From: Betaproteobacteria bacterium
GTDB lineage: Bacteria > Pseudomonadota > Gammaproteobacteria > Burkholderiales > Burkholderiaceae_A
Assembly: GCA_016868305.1 (NCBI GenBank)
Contig: VGHK01000002.1
Coordinates: forward strand, 1-64,000
Direction of reading: 5' to 3'
DNA: 64,000 nucleotides
Made by a program: the position numbers and the translations under genes. This document shows positions 23,569-33,635 of the stretch, piece by piece (position 1 is the stretch's first letter; each line of letters starts with the position of its first letter). The notes under the pieces are model-generated. The model was not told the DNA's origin and did no database searches. It saw nothing but the letters and a program-made list of their open reading frames with translations.

Positions 23569-24336
23569 TTATTGATCGGTCGTGGCACCCTGGGCATGCG
23601 GCTTTAAGCAGAATACGCGTCCATCTGCCACGGGATACACCGCATCATAATCCTTTGGCTGCAAACGAAAACTGCCCGTAAATGCCCCAAAGGCCGGAAG
23701 CAGCCACTGGCCTGCCCGATAGGCAAAGCATCGCAGGCGCAGCCGCTGCCGAGCGCCACCCGCAACCAGCACAGAAGGATGCAGATGGCCCGCAATCAAC
23801 CAGACCCTCTGGGGCAGGTCAGTGCCTCCGCGAGCATCGGTAAGGTCTTGCGGGCTGTGCACCCCCAGGAAGCCAGGGACTTCCTGCCAATGGTCTTGAA
23901 AAACCGTGAGCCTAAGCAGTGGTGCCCAGTGCGCTCGGAGCGCCTCAGAGGCCTTTCGGTCGTGGTTGCCCATCACCAGATGCCAGGGCATATCGGAATG
24001 CTGACTGCGCAGGGCGGCTAGCTGTTCTTGCAGCCGCGGCGTAAGCGACTGGACATCGTGCACCAGGTCGCCCAGAACCACCAGACACCGGGGGCGGTAC
24101 TGGCCTAAGACCGCAGACAGATGCATCAGCGTCTCCTGGTCGCTGCCCTCGGGAACCCCCAGCCCCGCGCGGCGAAAGCTGGTGGACTTTCCCAGATGAA
24201 GATCAGAGACAAAGGCGGTCTGGCTCACCGCATCAATAAGGGCGCCTTGGGGAGTCAGCCAGAGGCGTTTCTGGTGCACGGCGCCTTCCACACAGTATGC
24301 GCCACCGAGATGGGGCCTGCTGAAAGGCCCCTTCAT
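23569..24336 (-). CDS. pdeM: Ligase-associated DNA damage response phosphoesterase PdeM
   Basis: A calcineurin-type metallophosphoesterase of 255 residues that belongs to the ligase-associated repair cluster (ligase, exonuclease, Lhr helicase, phosphoesterase). Metal-binding motifs are seen in order: SDLHLGK (D-x-H), LGDLVHD (GD), GNHDR (GNHD) and AGHLHPS (GHxH). The family is thought to process DNA or nucleotide ends, but its precise substrate is not settled. Its ATG overlaps the helicase stop as ATGA, so the two are made together. Confidence 0.92.
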   Translation of the reverse strand: MKGPFSRPHLGGAYCVEGAVHQKRLWLTPQGALIDAVSQTAFVSDLHLGKSTSFRRAGLGVPEGSDQETLMHLSAVLGQYRPRCLVVLGDLVHDVQSLTPRLQEQLAALRSQHSDMPWHLVMGNHDRKASEALRAHWAPLLRLTVFQDHWQEVPGFLGVHSPQDLTDARGGTDLPQRVWLIAGHLHPSVLVAGGARQRLRLRCFAYRAGQWLLPAFGAFTGSFRLQPKDYDAVYPVADGRVFCLKPHAQGATTDQ

Positions 24337-26900
24337 GAAGACAGGCCCGAGGATAGCCCCTTATGGGCATCCTCCAGCATCCTCGCGACGCGGTCGGCAA
24401 GCTTCTCACTAGAGAGCTGCTCGCGAAGACGCTCCACCATAAGTGGAAAGGCAAAGGGGCTCGGGCGAGACAGATCAACCCACAGCCATCGGGCCCGGCT
24501 GCAACGCTCCAGCGTCTCGCTGAGGTCTTGCAGATTCAGTTCATCGCGCTGCACCTCACGCCAGGACTGCTGCAAGAGGGCATTGTCCGGATCGTATTTC
24601 TGAAAGACCTCATAGAAAAGGTTGGAAGAGGCCGCAAACTGACGGCTCGTCTTCTCGGCCCCAGGCATACCCGAGAAGACAAGCCCTGCCACCCGGGCAA
24701 TCTCGCGAAACCGCCGCTGGGCAAGCCCACCGGCGCGCAAGGCCGATAACAGGTCTTGGGCCAGACAGTCGTTTCCTGCCAGAATGACCGACCGCAGAGA
24801 AGACTCGGTAAGCAGCCCGGCCTGGTCCCGCGGCACCAGCAGTTCGAGCCCATAGTCATTTACCGCGTAAGAAAGGCTGACTGGCGCCTGCTGGGCCAGT
24901 CGGTATGCCAGGAGCGTGGCAAGGCCCAGGTGCACCGTGCGGCCCGCAAACGGGTAGACAAAGACATGGGCACCCTCGCGCGAGTCCAGCCTTTCCAGCA
25001 GAAAAGAATCGGCCGGGGGCAGGCACGATCGCATCGCCTGTGTAGTAAGCAGTGGCCAAAGCGCGGCGACCTCAGGCGCCTGTCTGGCCGGCAAGGCGGG
25101 CGCTGTTTCCCCCGACGCAAAAACGAACGACAGCTGCGACAAGACCTCGCGCAGCGTGGCCGAGAGCATTCCCGAAAGGGGCATACTGCCGCCATTCCAA
25201 CGAGGTACCGCGCCAGCCTTTTTCTTGGCCAGTCGTACATAGGCGGTAAGGTCTTTTACGCGCACGAGTTCAAGCGCCCGGCCTGAGAACAGAAAAGTAT
25301 CCCCAGGCTTGAGTCGGCCAATAAACGATTCCTCGATCTGACCAAGACTGCCGCCCGACACCCAGGCAAGACGAATGCTCGCATCCGACAGAATCGTGCC
25401 GATCGACAGGCGATGCCTGCGGGCCATACGGGCATCGGCCATCTGCCAGCGCCCTACGGCATCAGTCTGCAGACGATGAAACTCAGGATAGGCGGCAAGG
25501 CTTGTACCGCCTTGGGAGAGGAACTGCAGCGCCCAGGCAAAGGCCTCGGGGGTGAGGCTGCGATAGCTGTAGGCGGTGCGCACCTCTTGATAGAGGTGCG
25601 CACCCGTCATAGGCCTACCCAGTACCCGGGTGGCAAGGTGCTGCACGAGCACATCCATGGGTGCCTGAGGCGGTGGCCGTGACTCAACCCGGCCCGCGGC
25701 AAGGGCGCGCTGGGCGGCATAAGACTCCAGGATCTCCAGGGCATGGGTAGGAACCAGCACCAGCCGCGCGGTCTTGCCTGGCTGATGGCCCGAGCGGCCC
25801 GCCCGCTGCAGCAGGCGCGCCAGACCCTTGGGGCTGCCGATCTGCAGCACCTGTTCCACTGGTGCAAAGTCCACCCCCAGGTCGAGGCTCGAGGTTGCCA
25901 CCACTGCCTTCAGTAGCCCCTGGGCAATGGCCTTCTCCACCCAGGCCCGGGTCTGATGATCGAGCGACCCGTGGTGCAAGGCCATGCAGCCGGCCCAGTC
26001 CGGCCGTGCCTCTAAAAGCGCCTGATACCAGAGTTCGGCCTGTGACCGGGTGTTGGTGAAGACAAGACTGGTCGATGCCCTATCGATTGCCTCGACCACC
26101 TGGGCACGCATTGCCAGCCCCAGATGCCCTGCCCAGGGAAATCGCCCCGCCTGCGCGGGCAGGAGTGTCTCGATCACGATAGGCTTGGCAATATCGCAGG
26201 CAATCTGACAGACGGACAGCCCCTGTTCAGACAAAACGCTCGCGCACAGGCTCTCAGCCGCCTCATCAAGATTTCCCAGAGTCGCCGATAGACCCCAGGC
26301 AATGAATGCCGGCCTCTGGAGAGCATCTGCGGGCATGCCCATGTCTGTCTGCGCTGATGCCAGCGCGGCTAAGGCAAGTTGCAGCTGTACCCCGCGCTTA
26401 CTGCCTAAGAGCTCATGCCATTCGTCAGCCACTACCGCATGGACGGACTGCAGCAGCACCAGGCCTTGGGGCTTGGAGAGCAACAGGCATAGGCTCTCTG
26501 GGGTCGTCACCAGAGCATGCGGGGGCAGGCGGTCCTGGCGCGCCCGTTCGGCAGTCGAGGTGTCCCCGGTGCGCAGGCCCACCCGCAGCCCGCTGCCTGC
26601 CGCATCAGCAAGCCTTTGCAAAGACTGCGCGGTATCAGCGGCCAGGGCGCGCATGGGCGTGACCCACAAGACCTGAAGACCTGAAGGGGCCGCAGAGGCC
26701 CGCGATGGTCGGCCGAACTGCCCTGCTGCATTGCTGAGGATTCGGTTCAAAAGGCCTCCCCAGATCGCGTAGGTCTTTCCCGTGCCCGTGCCGGCCTGCA
26801 ACAGCCCCGACCGCCCGCTGGCGATGGCCTGCCAGGCCTGTCTTTGGAACCCAAAGGGCTGATAGCCCAGCGCCGCAAAGGCCCGTTCGGCCGGCGTCAT
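24333..26900 (-). CDS. Ligase-associated DEXH-box helicase (Lhr family)
   Basis: This 855-residue superfamily 2 helicase matches the bacterial Lhr-type group found beside ATP-dependent ligases in a DNA damage response cluster. Seen in order: Q-motif region ALGYQPFGFQRQAW, Walker A QAGTGTGKTYAIWGG (about residue 37), DEWH box (VVADEWHELLGSKRG), SAT-like motif (GLSATLGN), TNTRSQAELW (motif IV), LDLGVDFAPV (motif V) and QRAGRSGHQPG (motif VI), followed by the Lhr winged-helix core. It is shorter than full-length Lhr (about 1500 residues) and lacks the long C-terminal extension, as usual for this subgroup. It follows the DUF429 gene by 3 bases. Confidence 0.93.
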   Translation of the reverse strand: MTPAERAFAALGYQPFGFQRQAWQAIASGRSGLLQAGTGTGKTYAIWGGLLNRILSNAAGQFGRPSRASAAPSGLQVLWVTPMRALAADTAQSLQRLADAAGSGLRVGLRTGDTSTAERARQDRLPPHALVTTPESLCLLLSKPQGLVLLQSVHAVVADEWHELLGSKRGVQLQLALAALASAQTDMGMPADALQRPAFIAWGLSATLGNLDEAAESLCASVLSEQGLSVCQIACDIAKPIVIETLLPAQAGRFPWAGHLGLAMRAQVVEAIDRASTSLVFTNTRSQAELWYQALLEARPDWAGCMALHHGSLDHQTRAWVEKAIAQGLLKAVVATSSLDLGVDFAPVEQVLQIGSPKGLARLLQRAGRSGHQPGKTARLVLVPTHALEILESYAAQRALAAGRVESRPPPQAPMDVLVQHLATRVLGRPMTGAHLYQEVRTAYSYRSLTPEAFAWALQFLSQGGTSLAAYPEFHRLQTDAVGRWQMADARMARRHRLSIGTILSDASIRLAWVSGGSLGQIEESFIGRLKPGDTFLFSGRALELVRVKDLTAYVRLAKKKAGAVPRWNGGSMPLSGMLSATLREVLSQLSFVFASGETAPALPARQAPEVAALWPLLTTQAMRSCLPPADSFLLERLDSREGAHVFVYPFAGRTVHLGLATLLAYRLAQQAPVSLSYAVNDYGLELLVPRDQAGLLTESSLRSVILAGNDCLAQDLLSALRAGGLAQRRFREIARVAGLVFSGMPGAEKTSRQFAASSNLFYEVFQKYDPDNALLQQSWREVQRDELNLQDLSETLERCSRARWLWVDLSRPSPFAFPLMVERLREQLSSEKLADRVARMLEDAHKGLSSGLSS

Positions 26901-26903
26901 GGC

Positions 26904-27812
26904 CTAATGGGGTACTGTCGCAATCCAGCCCTCAAGCGGATCGAGACAGGCAGGCAGCCCAAAACATGGCTCGGTGGCCGCATGCGCAGCCTGTAGGGCG
27001 CAGATCACCGCATCCAGCAGATCGCCACTGCCATCGATGGTCAGTTGTCGTATCCACCCCGCCGTGGCCACCAGCCGGGGGCGCAGGCCTGCCTCACCAC
27101 GCAGCAGGGCCCGGAGAATCTGTTGCCGGTGGTAGGCGCGGTCGGAGTCTTGTTTGGCGCGGGTATCGCTTTTGTACGACTGCCGCGTCACCTGGCGGGC
27201 GGTGAACCCCGGATAGGCCTCAAGGGCGATGCGCGCGGGCAGACAAATCCGGCTCGCAGCAGCGCTTGCACCAGGCGTATCCGGATCAGCCAAGAAAAAG
27301 GCTGTGTTCTCGAGAAGGTCTGGGCACCGGTCACCATGCGCGGGAAAACACAGCCCGGCCTCGACCATCCTGCCGATGCCGGCCTGCATCATCCAGGCCA
27401 CGGGCGGGTTCGTCCATCGCATGGCGGGGCTTGACCCCGCGGGCCTGTCGGTGGCCCGCCATGCAAACTTGTCGCCGACCGGCCGAGAGTCGCACCAGGC
27501 CTTAAACCGGGCGCGAATGGCCTCGCGGTCTGCGGCACAGAAAAACCGTACAAAGTCACGCCACTGCTCGGGCCAGCCCTCATGGGCAATCAGCACCCGA
27601 GGCTGACCAAAGGGCAGGTCGAATCCGCCTAGCCAGGGGCCAGGGGTAGCCAGGAACGTCTCAAAGGCCGACAGACTCGTCAGGCCCGATACATGACTGA
27701 GGCGATAGACCCCATGGCGAAGATCAAGGCTACCGACCGCTACCGTAATCGGTTTTTTGGGTGTGGGGGCGGAACTGAAGTCGATGCCATAGACCCTCGC
27801 TAAGCCATTCAT
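26904..27812 (-). CDS. DUF429 protein, predicted RNase-H-fold nuclease, inside the ligase operon
   Basis: The 302-residue product looks like a DUF429 protein, a family predicted to have an RNase H-like fold. Acidic residues in the expected places are D11 (YGIDFSSA), D65 (GGFDLPFGQPR), E198 (ALEAYPGF) and D264/D267 (GDLLDAVICAL). No biochemical role is established for the family, so nuclease activity is inference. The ATG overlaps the ligase stop as ATGA and the stop is 3 bases from the helicase start. The gene is therefore fully embedded in the repair operon, unlike the standard four-gene set as I know it. Confidence 0.8.
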   Translation of the reverse strand: MNGLARVYGIDFSSAPTPKKPITVAVGSLDLRHGVYRLSHVSGLTSLSAFETFLATPGPWLGGFDLPFGQPRVLIAHEGWPEQWRDFVRFFCAADREAIRARFKAWCDSRPVGDKFAWRATDRPAGSSPAMRWTNPPVAWMMQAGIGRMVEAGLCFPAHGDRCPDLLENTAFFLADPDTPGASAAASRICLPARIALEAYPGFTARQVTRQSYKSDTRAKQDSDRAYHRQQILRALLRGEAGLRPRLVATAGWIRQLTIDGSGDLLDAVICALQAAHAATEPCFGLPACLDPLEGWIATVPH

Positions 27813-29656
27813 TCGGAGGGCTCCGGCGGCACCTGCAGAAATGCCGCAAGCGCGGAAAGGCAGTCGGCCTGGGCGACCGTCTTGTCAGGACGCAGCCGCA
27901 GAATGCGCGGAAACCGCACGGCATAGCCACTCTTGTGGCGGCCCGAGGCCATGACACCCTCAAAGCCCAGTTCCATCACCAGGCTGGGGGCCACCTGTCG
28001 AACCGGCCCGAATTTTTCAAGAATCGATTTGCGAATCACCTGGTCGACCTGACGAATCTCTGCATCGGTAAGCCCCGAATAGGCCTTAGCAAAAGGCACG
28101 AGCACTGCAGGAGAGACCCGGTCATCCCACAGGGCAAAGCCATAGTCGGTGTACAGGCCCGCACGCCTGCCGTGGCCCCGCTGGGCATAGACCAGCACGG
28201 CATCCACCGAAAACGGGCTGCGCTTCCATTTCCAGCACTCGCCCTGTGGCGTCTTCTTCTGCCGTCCCTGGCCATAGCCCGCCTGCTGGCGCTTAAGCAT
28301 AACGCCTTCCACAAAATGCGCCTGAGCCTGCCTCCGCAGTCGCCAGGCCTCTTGCCACGAGGACAGGGCCAGCAAGGGCGAGAGCCGCAGCTGCTGCATC
28401 ACCGCCGGGTAGTGCAGACCCGCCTCCCGAACCGCTGCCTCCAGGCGTGTTCGTCTCTGCGAAAAGGCCAGGGGCCGAAGGTCTTCTGCAGACCATCGCA
28501 ACAGGTCATAGGCCATGAAGACCGCCGGGGTGCTTTGAAGCAGTCGGGCCGATGGTCGTTTGCGGCCAAGCCTGGTCTGTAGGGCCGCAAAAGGCTGGGG
28601 CCTGTGACTCTGTGCATCCCAGACCAGAATCTCCCCATCCAAGAGCAGGTCAGCATCCACCGCCTGCGACATGAGGCGCATGGCTGCAGCCAGCTCCGGA
28701 AACATCTCGGTGACCAGCTCCTCGCCCCGCGACCAGATAGCCACCGTCGCGCCACGCACGATTACCTGGGCTCGAATGCCATCCCATTTCCACTCGGCAG
28801 ACCAGTCTTCTACCGGGCCAAGGCGCTGCCCCAGGGCCGTCGCTGCAGACTCCGGGTCGGCGAGCACCTCTTCGGCAAGGGTGAGGCTCTGCGCAAGAAA
28901 AAAAGGCACCGGCCCAAGCAAAGCCTCGGTCGCCTCGGCGGGAGCGAGCAGCCGGGTAAAGGCATCGGCAGAGGGCAGATCTGCGGTAAACGCAATCAGC
29001 CGGGTGGCCATGGTCTCGCGAGACACTCCAGAAAGCGCAGACAAGGCTGCCGCCACCATCTGGCGCGACACACCCACCCGCAAGCCCCCGGTAATCAGCT
29101 TATTGAGGCAGAAGACCTCTCGTGGCGCGAGCTGCGCCCAGCTCTCTTGGATCACTGCCTGGGCCGCAGCCTGGTCTGCGTTACGCAGCGGCAGCAGACG
29201 ATGTCTGATCCAGTCAGAAAGCCCCAGACTCGCCATGGCGGAGCCGCCGCTGGCCTTGGCTGCATCTACCTGCCCCACCAGCAAGGCTATCGTCTCGGCA
29301 AGGTCGCCAACCGTCTGGTAGCACTCCTCAAAGGCCCAATCGGGCAGGTCAGTGGCGACCATCGCAGCCTGCTTCAAGACCGCCAATGGAACCAGACGTT
29401 TCAGGCGTTCGCCTGAGAGCAGCCAGGCAGCCCATGCAGCGTCGGAAGGAACAGCCTCGCCAAAATACACCTGCAGAACCTGCTGCCTGGCATGGGTTCC
29501 ATCGGCCTGTTCGAGTTCGATAAGCAGCTGGCTGAATCGGGCCAGGCCAAGGCCGGAAATGACCGCCTGCGGTGACCCCTGCGACGGCCCCTGTAGTGGC
29601 CCCTGCGGCAGGCTGGCGCTTACGGGTAAAAGCGATGGTGCCTGGGCTTCAGACAT
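27809..29656 (-). CDS. Ligase-associated ATP-dependent DNA ligase
   Basis: ATP-dependent DNA ligase of 615 residues, of the type found with the Lhr helicase and MBL exonuclease in bacterial repair clusters. An N-terminal all-alpha DNA-binding domain (about residues 35-245) leads to the adenylation domain with K290 in EWKWDGIRAQ as the nucleotidyl-transfer lysine. Downstream are LLDGEILVW (motif III), FMAYDLLRW (motif IIIa), EGVMLKRQQAGYGQGR (motif IV-like) and WKWKRSPFSVDAVLVYAQ (motif V). The first 30 residues are a low-complexity Pro/Gln/Gly stretch with repeated PQGP-like units. It overlaps the exonuclease gene by 8 bases and the DUF429 gene by 4. Confidence 0.94.
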   Translation of the reverse strand: MSEAQAPSLLPVSASLPQGPLQGPSQGSPQAVISGLGLARFSQLLIELEQADGTHARQQVLQVYFGEAVPSDAAWAAWLLSGERLKRLVPLAVLKQAAMVATDLPDWAFEECYQTVGDLAETIALLVGQVDAAKASGGSAMASLGLSDWIRHRLLPLRNADQAAAQAVIQESWAQLAPREVFCLNKLITGGLRVGVSRQMVAAALSALSGVSRETMATRLIAFTADLPSADAFTRLLAPAEATEALLGPVPFFLAQSLTLAEEVLADPESAATALGQRLGPVEDWSAEWKWDGIRAQVIVRGATVAIWSRGEELVTEMFPELAAAMRLMSQAVDADLLLDGEILVWDAQSHRPQPFAALQTRLGRKRPSARLLQSTPAVFMAYDLLRWSAEDLRPLAFSQRRTRLEAAVREAGLHYPAVMQQLRLSPLLALSSWQEAWRLRRQAQAHFVEGVMLKRQQAGYGQGRQKKTPQGECWKWKRSPFSVDAVLVYAQRGHGRRAGLYTDYGFALWDDRVSPAVLVPFAKAYSGLTDAEIRQVDQVIRKSILEKFGPVRQVAPSLVMELGFEGVMASGRHKSGYAVRFPRILRLRPDKTVAQADCLSALAAFLQVPPEPSE

Positions 29657-30656
29657 CGGCGGCCTGGGCGTCGAATTCGGTCTGAAAGGTATCGGCCTGC
29701 AAGCCCCGGGCCGAAAGCCAGCGGGCCATGAAGGCAGTCTGCCCGTGGGTCAGGATCACGCGCGATGCCTGGCTATGATCAATAGCCCAGAGCAGCCCCG
29801 GCCAGTCGGCATGATCCGACAGCACAAAGCCCCGCACCCCGGGCTGGCGGCGCCGTGCCCCCCGAACCGTCATCCATCCCGAGACATTGGCCTGGGAGAC
29901 GGGCACCTGCTGCCGGCCCAGCCAGTGCGAACCCTGAACCGACTGCGGCGCGAGCACCAGGTCTCCTGCTGCCAGTCGCGTTGGGGGCGTCTGATCCGCC
30001 GGAACCCCGACACCGGCAGCCCGGTAGGCGGCGTTGATCCTTGCAACCGCCGCATGCACATAGACAGGGCCAGGGCCGGACCGGATCCCCGCACGATCAT
30101 CGATCGCCATGATCAGTCGCTGGGCCTTGCCCAGGGCATAGGTATAGATCAGACAGGCATGGCCGCGCTGCGCCTCTTGCTGCCACCAGAGCAGGATCTC
30201 ATCAACCACCCGCTGCTGCGCCTGCCAGCGATAGATCGGCAGACCAAAGGTAGTCTCTGTAATAAAGACATCGGCAGCCACAGGCACAAAGGCATCACAA
30301 CTCGGGTCGGCAGCCACCCGATAGTCCCCCGACACCACCCAGACCCGGCCGTCCTTTTCTATCCGAATCTGACTGGCGCCCAGGACATGCCCTGCCGGAT
30401 GCAGCGACAGCCAGACATCGCCCACTCGCAGAGGCGCCCCAAAGCGCAAGGCCTGAAAGGAGGTCTGGCTGCCGAGCCGCGCCTGAAACACGGGCAGCCC
30501 GCGGGCGGAACACAGCACATGGCTATGGCCAGAACGGGCATGGTCTGCATGGGCATGGGTGAGCACTGCACGGTCGACGGCACGCCAGGGGTCAATAAAA
30601 AAACCGCCGGCTGGGCAGAAGAGCCCCTCGGGGCGCAAGACCACCAGGTCATCCAT
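29649..30656 (-). CDS. Ligase-associated DNA exonuclease (metallo-beta-lactamase fold)
   Basis: The 335-residue product is a metallo-beta-lactamase-fold nuclease with a beta-CASP-like domain, the third standard member of the ligase-associated set. The zinc-binding motif HAHADH is at residues 34-39. Further ligands lie in HPAGHVLGASQI, SGDY and the C-terminal VILTHGQ. The start ATG 30654-30656 is chosen because the conserved N-terminus begins MDDLVVLRPEGLF; the frame is open 49 codons further upstream but that part would overlap nudB. Ribosome-binding site weak, so coupling to nudB 23 bases upstream is likely. Confidence 0.93.
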   Translation of the reverse strand: MDDLVVLRPEGLFCPAGGFFIDPWRAVDRAVLTHAHADHARSGHSHVLCSARGLPVFQARLGSQTSFQALRFGAPLRVGDVWLSLHPAGHVLGASQIRIEKDGRVWVVSGDYRVAADPSCDAFVPVAADVFITETTFGLPIYRWQAQQRVVDEILLWWQQEAQRGHACLIYTYALGKAQRLIMAIDDRAGIRSGPGPVYVHAAVARINAAYRAAGVGVPADQTPPTRLAAGDLVLAPQSVQGSHWLGRQQVPVSQANVSGWMTVRGARRRQPGVRGFVLSDHADWPGLLWAIDHSQASRVILTHGQTAFMARWLSARGLQADTFQTEFDAQAADV

Positions 30657-30679
30657 GGGCAGCGCCAGAAAGAAAGAGG

Positions 30680-31168
30680 CTAAGACAGGGTATCGGGCGG
30701 CGATCCGTCTGCAGAAAACGGCCGGCGCTGCGCCAGCATTCGGATAGCCTTGGCATTGCTCCAGGAGAAGCAGACCTCGGCGGCCGCCTGCCAGGCAAGC
30801 CACTGAGACTGCAGGTGCTCACGCGGAGCCAGGCGTATCGGCGCATCGGATGGCACGCAGACAGAAAAGACATGTTCCGTATTCTGCGTCACGCCCGGGG
30901 CATAGCGATAACGCCAGTGGGGAAAAATCTCGTAGACCTGCGAAAATTCCCAGTCGGACCATGCCTCGAGGCCGGCGACCAGCCCAGTCTCTTCGGCGAG
31001 TTCCCGTTGGGCCGCCTGCAGCAAAGGCTCATCCATGGCATCCAGGCTTCCGGTCACCGACTGCCAGAATCCCGGCTTGTCGGCGCGTTCCAAAAGCAGT
31101 ACTTGCCCTTCTGGGTTATGAATGACCACCAGCACCGACCGCGGAATCTTGTAGGGCTTGGTGACCAC
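30680..31168 (-). CDS. nudB: Dihydroneopterin triphosphate diphosphatase NudB
   Basis: NudB removes pyrophosphate from dihydroneopterin triphosphate in folate synthesis. The 162-residue Nudix protein has FWQSVTGSLDAMDEP leading into the Nudix helix RELAEETGL, with one extra residue in the loop compared with the standard Nudix spacing, and the NudB-specific HWRYRYAPGVTQNTEHVF. The start is GTG 31166-31168. It lies 20 bases downstream of a membrane-protein gene and 23 upstream of the repair operon; in many betaproteobacteria nudB is found close to aspS, as here. Confidence 0.93.
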   Translation of the reverse strand: MVTKPYKIPRSVLVVIHNPEGQVLLLERADKPGFWQSVTGSLDAMDEPLLQAAQRELAEETGLVAGLEAWSDWEFSQVYEIFPHWRYRYAPGVTQNTEHVFSVCVPSDAPIRLAPREHLQSQWLAWQAAAEVCFSWSNAKAIRMLAQRRPFSADGSPPDTLS

Positions 31169-31188: not shown

Positions 31189-31842
31189 TCAGCGCAGGGG
31201 CAGTAGGGCCGCAAGCATCAGACCCACCAGCATGATCAGTACGTAAATGAAGATCGCAGAGGTCATGAGCTGACGGCTTGCACCAGTCTCGGCAGTATCA
31301 GCCATGGCAATGCGGCGGGCGTGCCAGGCGGGTACCGCTGCGACACTGGCCCAGATGGCCGCTGCAGGCAGCCAGTTGTAGAGACCCGCAAACGGAAGGG
31401 CCAGGCACGCAATATAGATGCTCACCGCTGCATGGCGGGCAGAGGCCTCAGAGTCGGGGCGTTGCGAAAACCAGTAGGCAAGCATGGCAAGGCCCAGCGT
31501 GAGACCAACCACAAAGGCCATGGGCAGCCACTGCCCGGACAGGTTTCCTGCCACAAGCACGACAACAAAAAAGTTCACAAAGACAATACTGAATGCCCGC
31601 ACCCAGACTGGCCAGATCGATGGGTCATCCAGGACATTCGGCGCAAATCGACGAAACAAGATCTGGCCCAGAAGCGCCAGGCCCGCATAGACCGCGGAGA
31701 GGGTAAGCCGCGTCTCGTCGAGACTTGGGTCACCAATCCAGGCAACAGCAAGGCCATAGAACACCGCCATCGGCCCATAGACCAGGGCACGCCAGTGGCC
31801 GCGGTGCGTCAACCGGGCAGGCGACGCGAGGGGCGCGGTCAT
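31189..31842 (-). CDS. Membrane protein of unknown function between aspS and nudB
   Basis: I do not recognise a named family. The 217-residue product has about seven hydrophobic segments, few charges, and a short basic N-terminus (RLTHRGHW). No catalytic or metal-binding motif stands out. The ATG overlaps the aspS stop as ATGA, so it is co-translated with aspS, and nudB follows after 20 bases. A transport or structural role in the inner membrane is possible; nothing more can be said. Confidence 0.8.
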
Positions 31843-33635
31843 GCCAGGATCTTGGGCGCCTCTCGCAGGCGAATATGCAGTTCGCGCAGCTGGCGGTCAT
31901 CGACCAAGGAGGGAGCCTGGGTCAGCAGACACTGCGCCCTCTGGGTCTTGGGAAAGGCAATCACGTCACGAATCGAGTCTGCACCTGTCATGAGTGTCAC
32001 CAAGCGGTCCAGACCGAAGGCAAGCCCGCCGTGCGGGGGCGCCCCGTATCGCAGGGCATCGAGCAGAAAGCCAAACTTTACTTGCGCCTCTTCTTCGCCA
32101 ATGTTCAAGGCGCGAAAGACCTTGCTCTGCACCGCTTCGGTATGAATTCGCACAGAGCCGCCGCCGAGTTCCCAGCCATTGAGCACCATATCGTAGGCCT
32201 TGGCCAGACAGGCGCCAGGATTGGTCTCCATAAGGTCTTCGTGACCGTCCTTGGGGGCAGTAAACGGATGGTGCACGGCCGTCCATCGGCCAGCCTCTTC
32301 GTCGCGCTCAAACATGGGGAAGTCCACCACCCACAGAGGCTTCCAGCCCTGGGTGAACAGACCATGGCTGCGGCCAAATTCACTGTGGCCAATTTTGACC
32401 CGCAGGGCCCCGAGGGCATCATTCACGATCTTGTCTTTATCAGCACCGAAAAACAAAATGTCTCCATCTTGTGCCCCGGAGCGCTGCAGAATTGATTGCA
32501 ATGCCTGGTCATGAATGTTCTTTACGATCGGCGACTGCAGCCCGTCCCGACCCTGGGCGATGGCATTCACTTTAATCCAGGCCAACCCCTTGGCACCGTA
32601 AATCTTCACAAACTCGGTATAGCCATCAATCTCGCTGCGCGAAAGCGCGCCTCCGCCGGGTACCCGCAGGGCCACCACCCGGCCATTCGGAAGACGCGCG
32701 GGCTCGGAGAAGACCTTGAAGTCAACATCAGCCACCAGGTCGGTAATCTCGGTGAATTCAAGCGATACCCGCAGATCGGGCTTATCGGATCCGTAGCGGC
32801 CCATGGCATCGGCATAGGTCATGACCGGAAACGGGTCAGGAAGCGCAACCTGCATGGTGTCAGCAAACACCCCGCGAATCATGGTCTCAAACAAGGCGCG
32901 AATCTGCTGTTCGGTGAGAAAAGACGTCTCGCAGTCTATCTGTGTGAACTCGGGCTGGCGGTCTGCGCGCAGGTCTTCGTCACGGAAACACTTGGTGATC
33001 TGGTAGTAGCGGTCAAAACCCGCCACCATGAGCAGCTGCTTAAAAAGCTGTGGCGACTGCGGAAGGGCAAAAAACGCGCCCTCATGGACACGCGATGGCA
33101 CAAGGTAGTCGCGGGCACCCTCCGGGGTGGACTTGGTGAGCATGGGGGTCTCAATATCGATAAACCCCTGGCCATCGAGGTAGCAACGCACGGCCATAGC
33201 TACTTTGTAGCGCAGCATCAGGTTTTTTTGCATCGCAGGGCGTCTCAGGTCGAGCACTCGATGGGTGAGCCGGGTGGTCTCCGAGAGATGGTCGTCATCT
33301 AACTGAAAAGGTGGGGTCACCGAAGCATTGAGGATCTGCAGGTCGTGACAGAGCAGCTCGATCTCGCCGCTCTTCATCGCGGGGTTGGTGGTTCCCTCCG
33401 GCCGACGCCGCACCTTACCCGTGATGCGCAGGCAGAATTCATTGCGTACCGACTCGGCGGTGGCAAACATGCTCGGCCGATCAGGGTCGCAGACCACCTG
33501 GGCAAGACCCTCGCGGTCGCGCAGGTCGATAAAAATCACACCCCCATGGTCACGACGACGGTGCACCCAGCCGCAGAGTGAGACCACCTCGTCGAGCTGA
33601 TCGGCCGATAACTGGCCGCAATAATGACTACGCAT
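31839..33635 (-). CDS. aspS: Aspartyl-tRNA synthetase
   Basis: AspS charges tRNA-Asp (and tRNA-Asn in non-discriminating forms) in the cytoplasm. The 598-residue class II synthetase has the N-terminal OB-fold anticodon domain ([23 protein letters not shown], shown in part as [12 protein letters not shown]), motif 2 ([18 protein letters not shown], within 130-240), the bacterial GAD insertion domain, and motif 3 [10 protein letters not shown]. The length is typical of bacterial AspS. It is third in the run fmdB-DUF502-aspS, an order common in betaproteobacteria; the DUF502 stop lies 11 bases upstream. Confidence 0.98.

Follow-up and report, generated by a model that had tools for sequence, protein, structure and literature searches.

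In the 64,000-nucleotide stretch of DNA analysed (hereafter the window), which comes from an uncultured Burkholderiales bacterium, the gene located between the ligase and the helicase of a ligase-associated DNA repair cluster is, on balance, best explained as encoding a divergent, RuvC-fold, DUF429-like probable nuclease. This protein would have a function independent of the ligase, would reside in a modular gene block and would possibly act as an accessory to repair; we hold this reading with reasonable rather than high confidence. Close relatives retain the gene although their repair genes have been lost or moved, so it is more plausibly an old neighbour, and at times a partner, of the repair genes than an essential fifth part of the cluster. 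Its recurrent placement in two kinds of DNA-repair operon, the predicted RuvC-like fold and five invariant acidic residues together suggest a concrete role for the subfamily, which is of value since no activity was reported for any DUF429 protein in the literature searched.

All the genes of the locus lie on the minus strand, in the transcription order aspS, membrane protein, nudB, exonuclease, ligase, DUF429-like gene, helicase and pdeM. AspS (aspartyl-tRNA synthetase, 31839-33635, named from its sequence) is an anchor of the syntenic block, and its relatives in the same position were 60-89% identical (tblastn). It is followed by a predicted membrane protein of 217 aa (31189-31842), which overlaps the aspS stop and has homologues at the same position in relatives, and by the block's anchor gene nudB (30680-31168), encoding dihydroneopterin triphosphate diphosphatase (NF006961, 211 bits for a cut-off of 103). 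The preliminary description, made from the sequence alone, had given the known ligase cluster as one of four genes. All four were found, co-directional and above the curated NCBIfam cut-offs: the ligase-associated MBL-fold exonuclease (29649-30803; TIGR04122, 396 bits for a cut-off of 325, residues 53-378), the cisplatin-damage-type ATP-dependent DNA ligase (27809-29656; TIGR04120, 545 bits for 400), the DEXH (Lhr-Core-like) helicase (24333-26900; TIGR04121, 982 bits for 850) and the phosphoesterase PdeM (23569-24336; TIGR04123, 174 bits for 150). In this the window is like the known TIGR04120-TIGR04123 cluster; unlike most ligase-associated clusters examined, it carries an extra gene between ligase and helicase, the DUF429-like gene (26904-27812, 302 aa), identified as an open reading frame and by profile match and structural model.

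The junctions of this gene were as first described. Its start codon (ATG, 27812-27810) and the ligase stop codon (TGA, 27811-27809) share bases in an ATGA (27809-27812), and its TAG (26906-26904) is separated by a 3-base gap (26901-26903) from the helicase ATG at 26900. Exonuclease and ligase overlap by 8 bases, helicase and pdeM by 4 bases, and the co-directional run reaches upstream of the repair genes to nudB and aspS. Because most gene junctions overlap or nearly overlap, the repair genes and the DUF429-like gene are likely co-translated, and the ATGA suggests translational coupling with the ligase, in line with the initial proposal. Co-expression is also probable, here and wherever the ligase set is present. 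A promoter and terminator scan gave no sigma-70-like site on the minus strand and several weak terminator-like stems, a result that was uninformative. The listed GTG start of the exonuclease probably lies about 50 codons upstream of the real one, since homology begins at residue 53; a later start would turn the overlap with nudB into a short gap.

The only Pfam match of the window protein was DUF429 (PF04250; 19.7 bits, E 7.7e-4, residues 196-283), below the Pfam gathering score of 23. The profile was matched by 39 of 48 relatives (E up to 0.01, best 1.8e-7), and the group was therefore called DUF429-like although the window protein itself is sub-threshold. DUF429 comprises COG2410, COG4328 and COG4923, mostly single-domain proteins whose gene context is conserved in close taxa; it was described as having a predicted RNase H fold in which strands 1 and 4 bear acids, and placed in clade D of the RNase H-like superfamily together with RuvC and YqgF (PMC3985635). 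The RNase H fold announced in the preliminary description was supported by an AlphaFold model built from 48 sequences (mean pLDDT 88.4, pTM 0.89). The modelled core is beta-beta-beta-alpha-beta plus a C-terminal helix (strands 5-11, 22-30, 35-44, 60-64 and 194-198; helix 47-54; C-terminal helix 264-279), and the predicted fold agrees with the published clade D placement (PMC3985635). Like DUF429, the window protein combines the weak profile match with D11 ending strand 1 and D65 after strand 4; motifs peculiar to its subfamily (NPPVA, YKxD and EGWI) set it apart from DUF429 at large, and this subfamily turned up here in Burkholderiales and in a group of Planctomycetes.

The best solved fold was Thermus RuvC (Z 9.2, 144 aligned residues, 3.3 A). 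Other close folds were Deinococcus RuvC, yeast Ydc2, the fowlpox resolvase and MOC1, followed by phage terminase nucleases. The closest matches being RuvC-type resolvases, the RNase H or flap nuclease activity that the preliminary description had proposed to assay is not favoured. A Foldseek search with the model gave no significant match (best E 0.084), so the RuvC-type match is taken as moderate evidence, a Z of 8-9 possibly reflecting a common arrangement only. In the model, acids of the window protein follow strands 1 and 4 and stand at the C-terminal helix (D-x-x-D), a layout that may correspond to that of the Holliday-junction resolvases RuvC, Ydc2 and MOC1 (Z 8-9). The protein differs from them by the extra E198 after strand 5 and by the lack of a sequence match: searches of PDB sequences (phmmer and profile) returned no RuvC and no direct relatives. 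It is also about twice as long as RuvC, with long conserved segments (e.g. 110-135) that are not expected there. The second acid is usually Glu in RuvC; the window protein has D65 at this place.

The presumed active site was located with the model and an alignment of 28 ligase-linked and 117 unlinked DUF429 copies. D11 (codon 27780-27782, minus strand as for the following) ends beta-strand 1, D65 (27618-27620) lies just after beta-strand 4 and E198 (27219-27221) ends beta-strand 5. D267 (27012-27014) is in the C-terminal helix, at i+3 from D264 (27021-27023), which starts this helix. D264, absent from the first list of four acids, is presumed to belong to the active site with them. All five are present in the window protein and invariant in the approximately 145 sequences, alignment gaps in a few aside, which bears out the early statement that the acids are intact. 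None varied among cluster-linked copies, so the variation named in the preliminary description as a refutation was not seen; they were equally invariant in unlinked copies and are thus uninformative on the ligase pathway, and the idea that conserved acids distinguish copies linked to the ligase was rejected. K214 and R229 are likewise invariant, and about 50 positions are so in all, many outside the acidic site (K20, R119, D122, N135, K214, D216, R229, E294, W296). So many invariant positions exceed the needs of a generic nuclease and could indicate a specific small-molecule or RNA substrate. The DUF429-like gene is under purifying selection (median dN/dS 0.16 for copies linked to the ligase and 0.10-0.21 for those not linked). 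A strain-specific insertion or chance reading frame was rejected on the same ground (dN/dS about 0.1-0.2) and by its presence in all but one of the 26 family genomes; an anti-phage or phage gene was rejected since PADLOC and PHROGs gave no match.

Co-occurrence with the ligase was counted in 300 Burkholderiales genomes. The DUF429 subfamily was present in 59 and the ligase in 57, both being found in 31 genomes for 11.2 expected (odds ratio about 9), an excess over chance, the point that the preliminary description had proposed to test. In tests that ignore finer phylogeny, the excess held by genus (both in 16 for 5.9 expected, Fisher p 1.3e-6) and by family (51 families; 9 common of 15 and 14, p 0.0016). 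By a count from the coordinates, 17 of the 31 double carriers (in families f1, f3, f4, f10 and f13) place DUF429 no more than about 400 bases behind the ligase, and three more place it within 10 kb. The gene is thus not specific to one strain: it directly follows the ligase in five families, all belonging to Burkholderiales. Class and phylum samples contained the subfamily almost exclusively in this order; the ligase is common in the rest of the phylum, and DUF429 was found in 7 of 79 ligase-bearing genomes of the phylum sample. No DUF429 was seen within the stretches read around 20 ligase clusters of Alphaproteobacteria and non-Burkholderiales Gammaproteobacteria, nor around 20 further clusters of Burkholderiales. 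The latter 20 loci also showed no aspS, nudB, clsB or folE within the stretches read; the ligase at the aspS-nudB anchor and DUF429 therefore go together.

The family of the window (f1) is a natural experiment separating operon membership from functional dependence. Of its 26 genomes, 25 carry DUF429 when partial matches at broken contigs are counted, 10 carry the ligase and 5 the helicase. Not all of the genomes are complete, but near-complete ones, G001 and G011 (99%) among them, keep DUF429 and have neither ligase nor helicase. In ligase-free relatives, DUF429 lies directly after nudB or clsB. In the congener G007, the ligase (C12:42047-43792) adjoins the helicase (C12:39583-41991), leaving no space in which DUF429 could lie; DUF429 has stayed next to nudB on another contig, C9 (cf. 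L047). Since relatives keep the gene without the ligase, the DUF429-like protein has a function independent of the ligase pathway. The proposal of a fifth member was therefore retained in part: linkage to the ligase recurs across Burkholderiales families, but core membership is not supported, given the f1 counts, G007 and the 40 ligase loci that showed no DUF429 in the stretches read. Between nudB and DUF429, EEP-clsB and EXO-LIG look mutually exclusive in f1 (window 29649-31168; L042-L049, L051-L061); both are carried together in other families.

Across families, the pieces fit a single order, aspS-nudB-[EEP-clsB]-[EXO-LIG]-[folE-BLUF]-DUF429-[HEL-PdeM]. EEP-clsB occurs with repair genes in f4 and several f10 loci, EEP-clsB-folE-BLUF-DUF429 is found in many Comamonadaceae, and EXO-LIG-folE-BLUF-DUF429 in L063, L152 and L156. 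An ancestral block that lost cassettes is the simplest history, repeated insertion being the alternative. The order LIG-DUF429-HEL was also found in f13 and f3 without the aspS anchor in view, and a shared neighbourhood alone is thus no explanation for the linkage. In three genomes of f38 (L075, L079, L091), DUF429 lies immediately upstream of the gene for a probable DNA repair protein that resembles TIGR03623 (295.8 bits for a cut-off of 299.6) and carries a PD-(D/E)XK domain; the same run also includes an AddA/RecB-like UvrD helicase. This arrangement is a second repair-operon context for DUF429. Many other copies stand among unrelated genes.

Copies from Planctomycetaceae and Pirellulales were 54-63% identical to the window protein. 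In the DUF429 tree, the planctomycete copies (L103-L116, L118, L119, L122, L126, L129) nest within the betaproteobacterial family of the window, which suggests that DUF429 moved between phyla by transfer and left the ligase cluster behind. Planctomycete ligase clusters have no DUF429 inside and show the usual EXO-LIG-HEL(-PdeM) order in those loci that were read with sufficient flank. A co-transfer of ligase and DUF429 was considered and not seen: most planctomycete ligases group together, and none with those of the window's family. The ligase was present in 15 of 16 DUF429-bearing planctomycete genomes, versus 36 of 146 overall. A functional link would be consistent with this, but a single clade may be responsible: the planctomycete DUF429 copies form one branch and do not represent 15 independent events.

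Taken as a divergent, ligase-independent probable nuclease, the protein would probably be a metal-dependent DNA endonuclease using D11, D65, E198 and D264/D267; its most likely substrate would be DNA that is branched or distorted in some other way. In Betaproteobacteria its gene often lives in the aspS-nudB modular block, where cassettes are present or absent, and where the ligase set is present, and probably co-expressed, the nuclease may assist that repair in an accessory role. Four other readings were weighed. In pure hitch-hiking, DUF429 and the ligase cassette would merely share the aspS-nudB-clsB neighbourhood, their functions being unrelated. Many ligase-free genomes hold DUF429 in the same slot, behind nudB, clsB or folE-BLUF, and the 20 Burkholderiales ligase loci show neither DUF429 nor the anchor genes in the stretches read, which gives this reading some weight; the f13 and f3 order kept away from the anchor, the different repair operon of f38 and a predicted fold suited to DNA processing make it rather unlikely all the same. 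We consider it unlikely that DUF429 is a dedicated, lineage-specific fifth component, cutting an intermediate for subsequent processing and sealing by exonuclease, ligase and helicase. Such a component would account for DUF429 coming straight after the ligase in five families, often between ligase and helicase, for the persistence of this linkage in f13 and f3 with the aspS anchor out of view, and for the odds ratio. It would also fit genus g3, which keeps EXO-LIG-DUF429 with no helicase found in the genome, and the planctomycete genomes, in which DUF429 is unlinked and the ligase nevertheless frequent. However, 28 of the 59 DUF429-bearing Burkholderiales genomes have no such ligase, and the f1 counts, G007, the 40 loci and the single planctomycete branch also argue against it.

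A broader role is slightly more doubtful again: a previously undescribed RuvC-like structure-specific nuclease, accessory to ligase-associated repair in Burkholderiales and also serving the TIGR03623-AddA-type operon of f38. If true, one DUF429 subfamily would supply the cutting step to several repair systems. It is improbable that the substrate is a nucleotide or small phosphorylated molecule rather than DNA, tying the protein to NudB and FolE (folate and nucleotide pools). DUF429 does adjoin nudB or folE-BLUF in many Betaproteobacteria, NUDIX fusions are known for some DUF429 domains (PMC3985635) and many invariant residues are non-acidic. Against this stand the RuvC-like predicted fold, in which five invariant acids lie at the ends of strands and helices where they would be expected, the links of f13, f3 and f38 to DNA-repair genes with nudB and folE out of view, and the planctomycete copies, which have neither nudB nor folE as neighbours. 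In the Comamonadaceae with a conserved nudB-EEP-clsB-folE-BLUF-DUF429 run (L141, L148, L161, L166, L176 and similar loci), a blue-light sensor and GTP cyclohydrolase I are found beside the nuclease-like gene.
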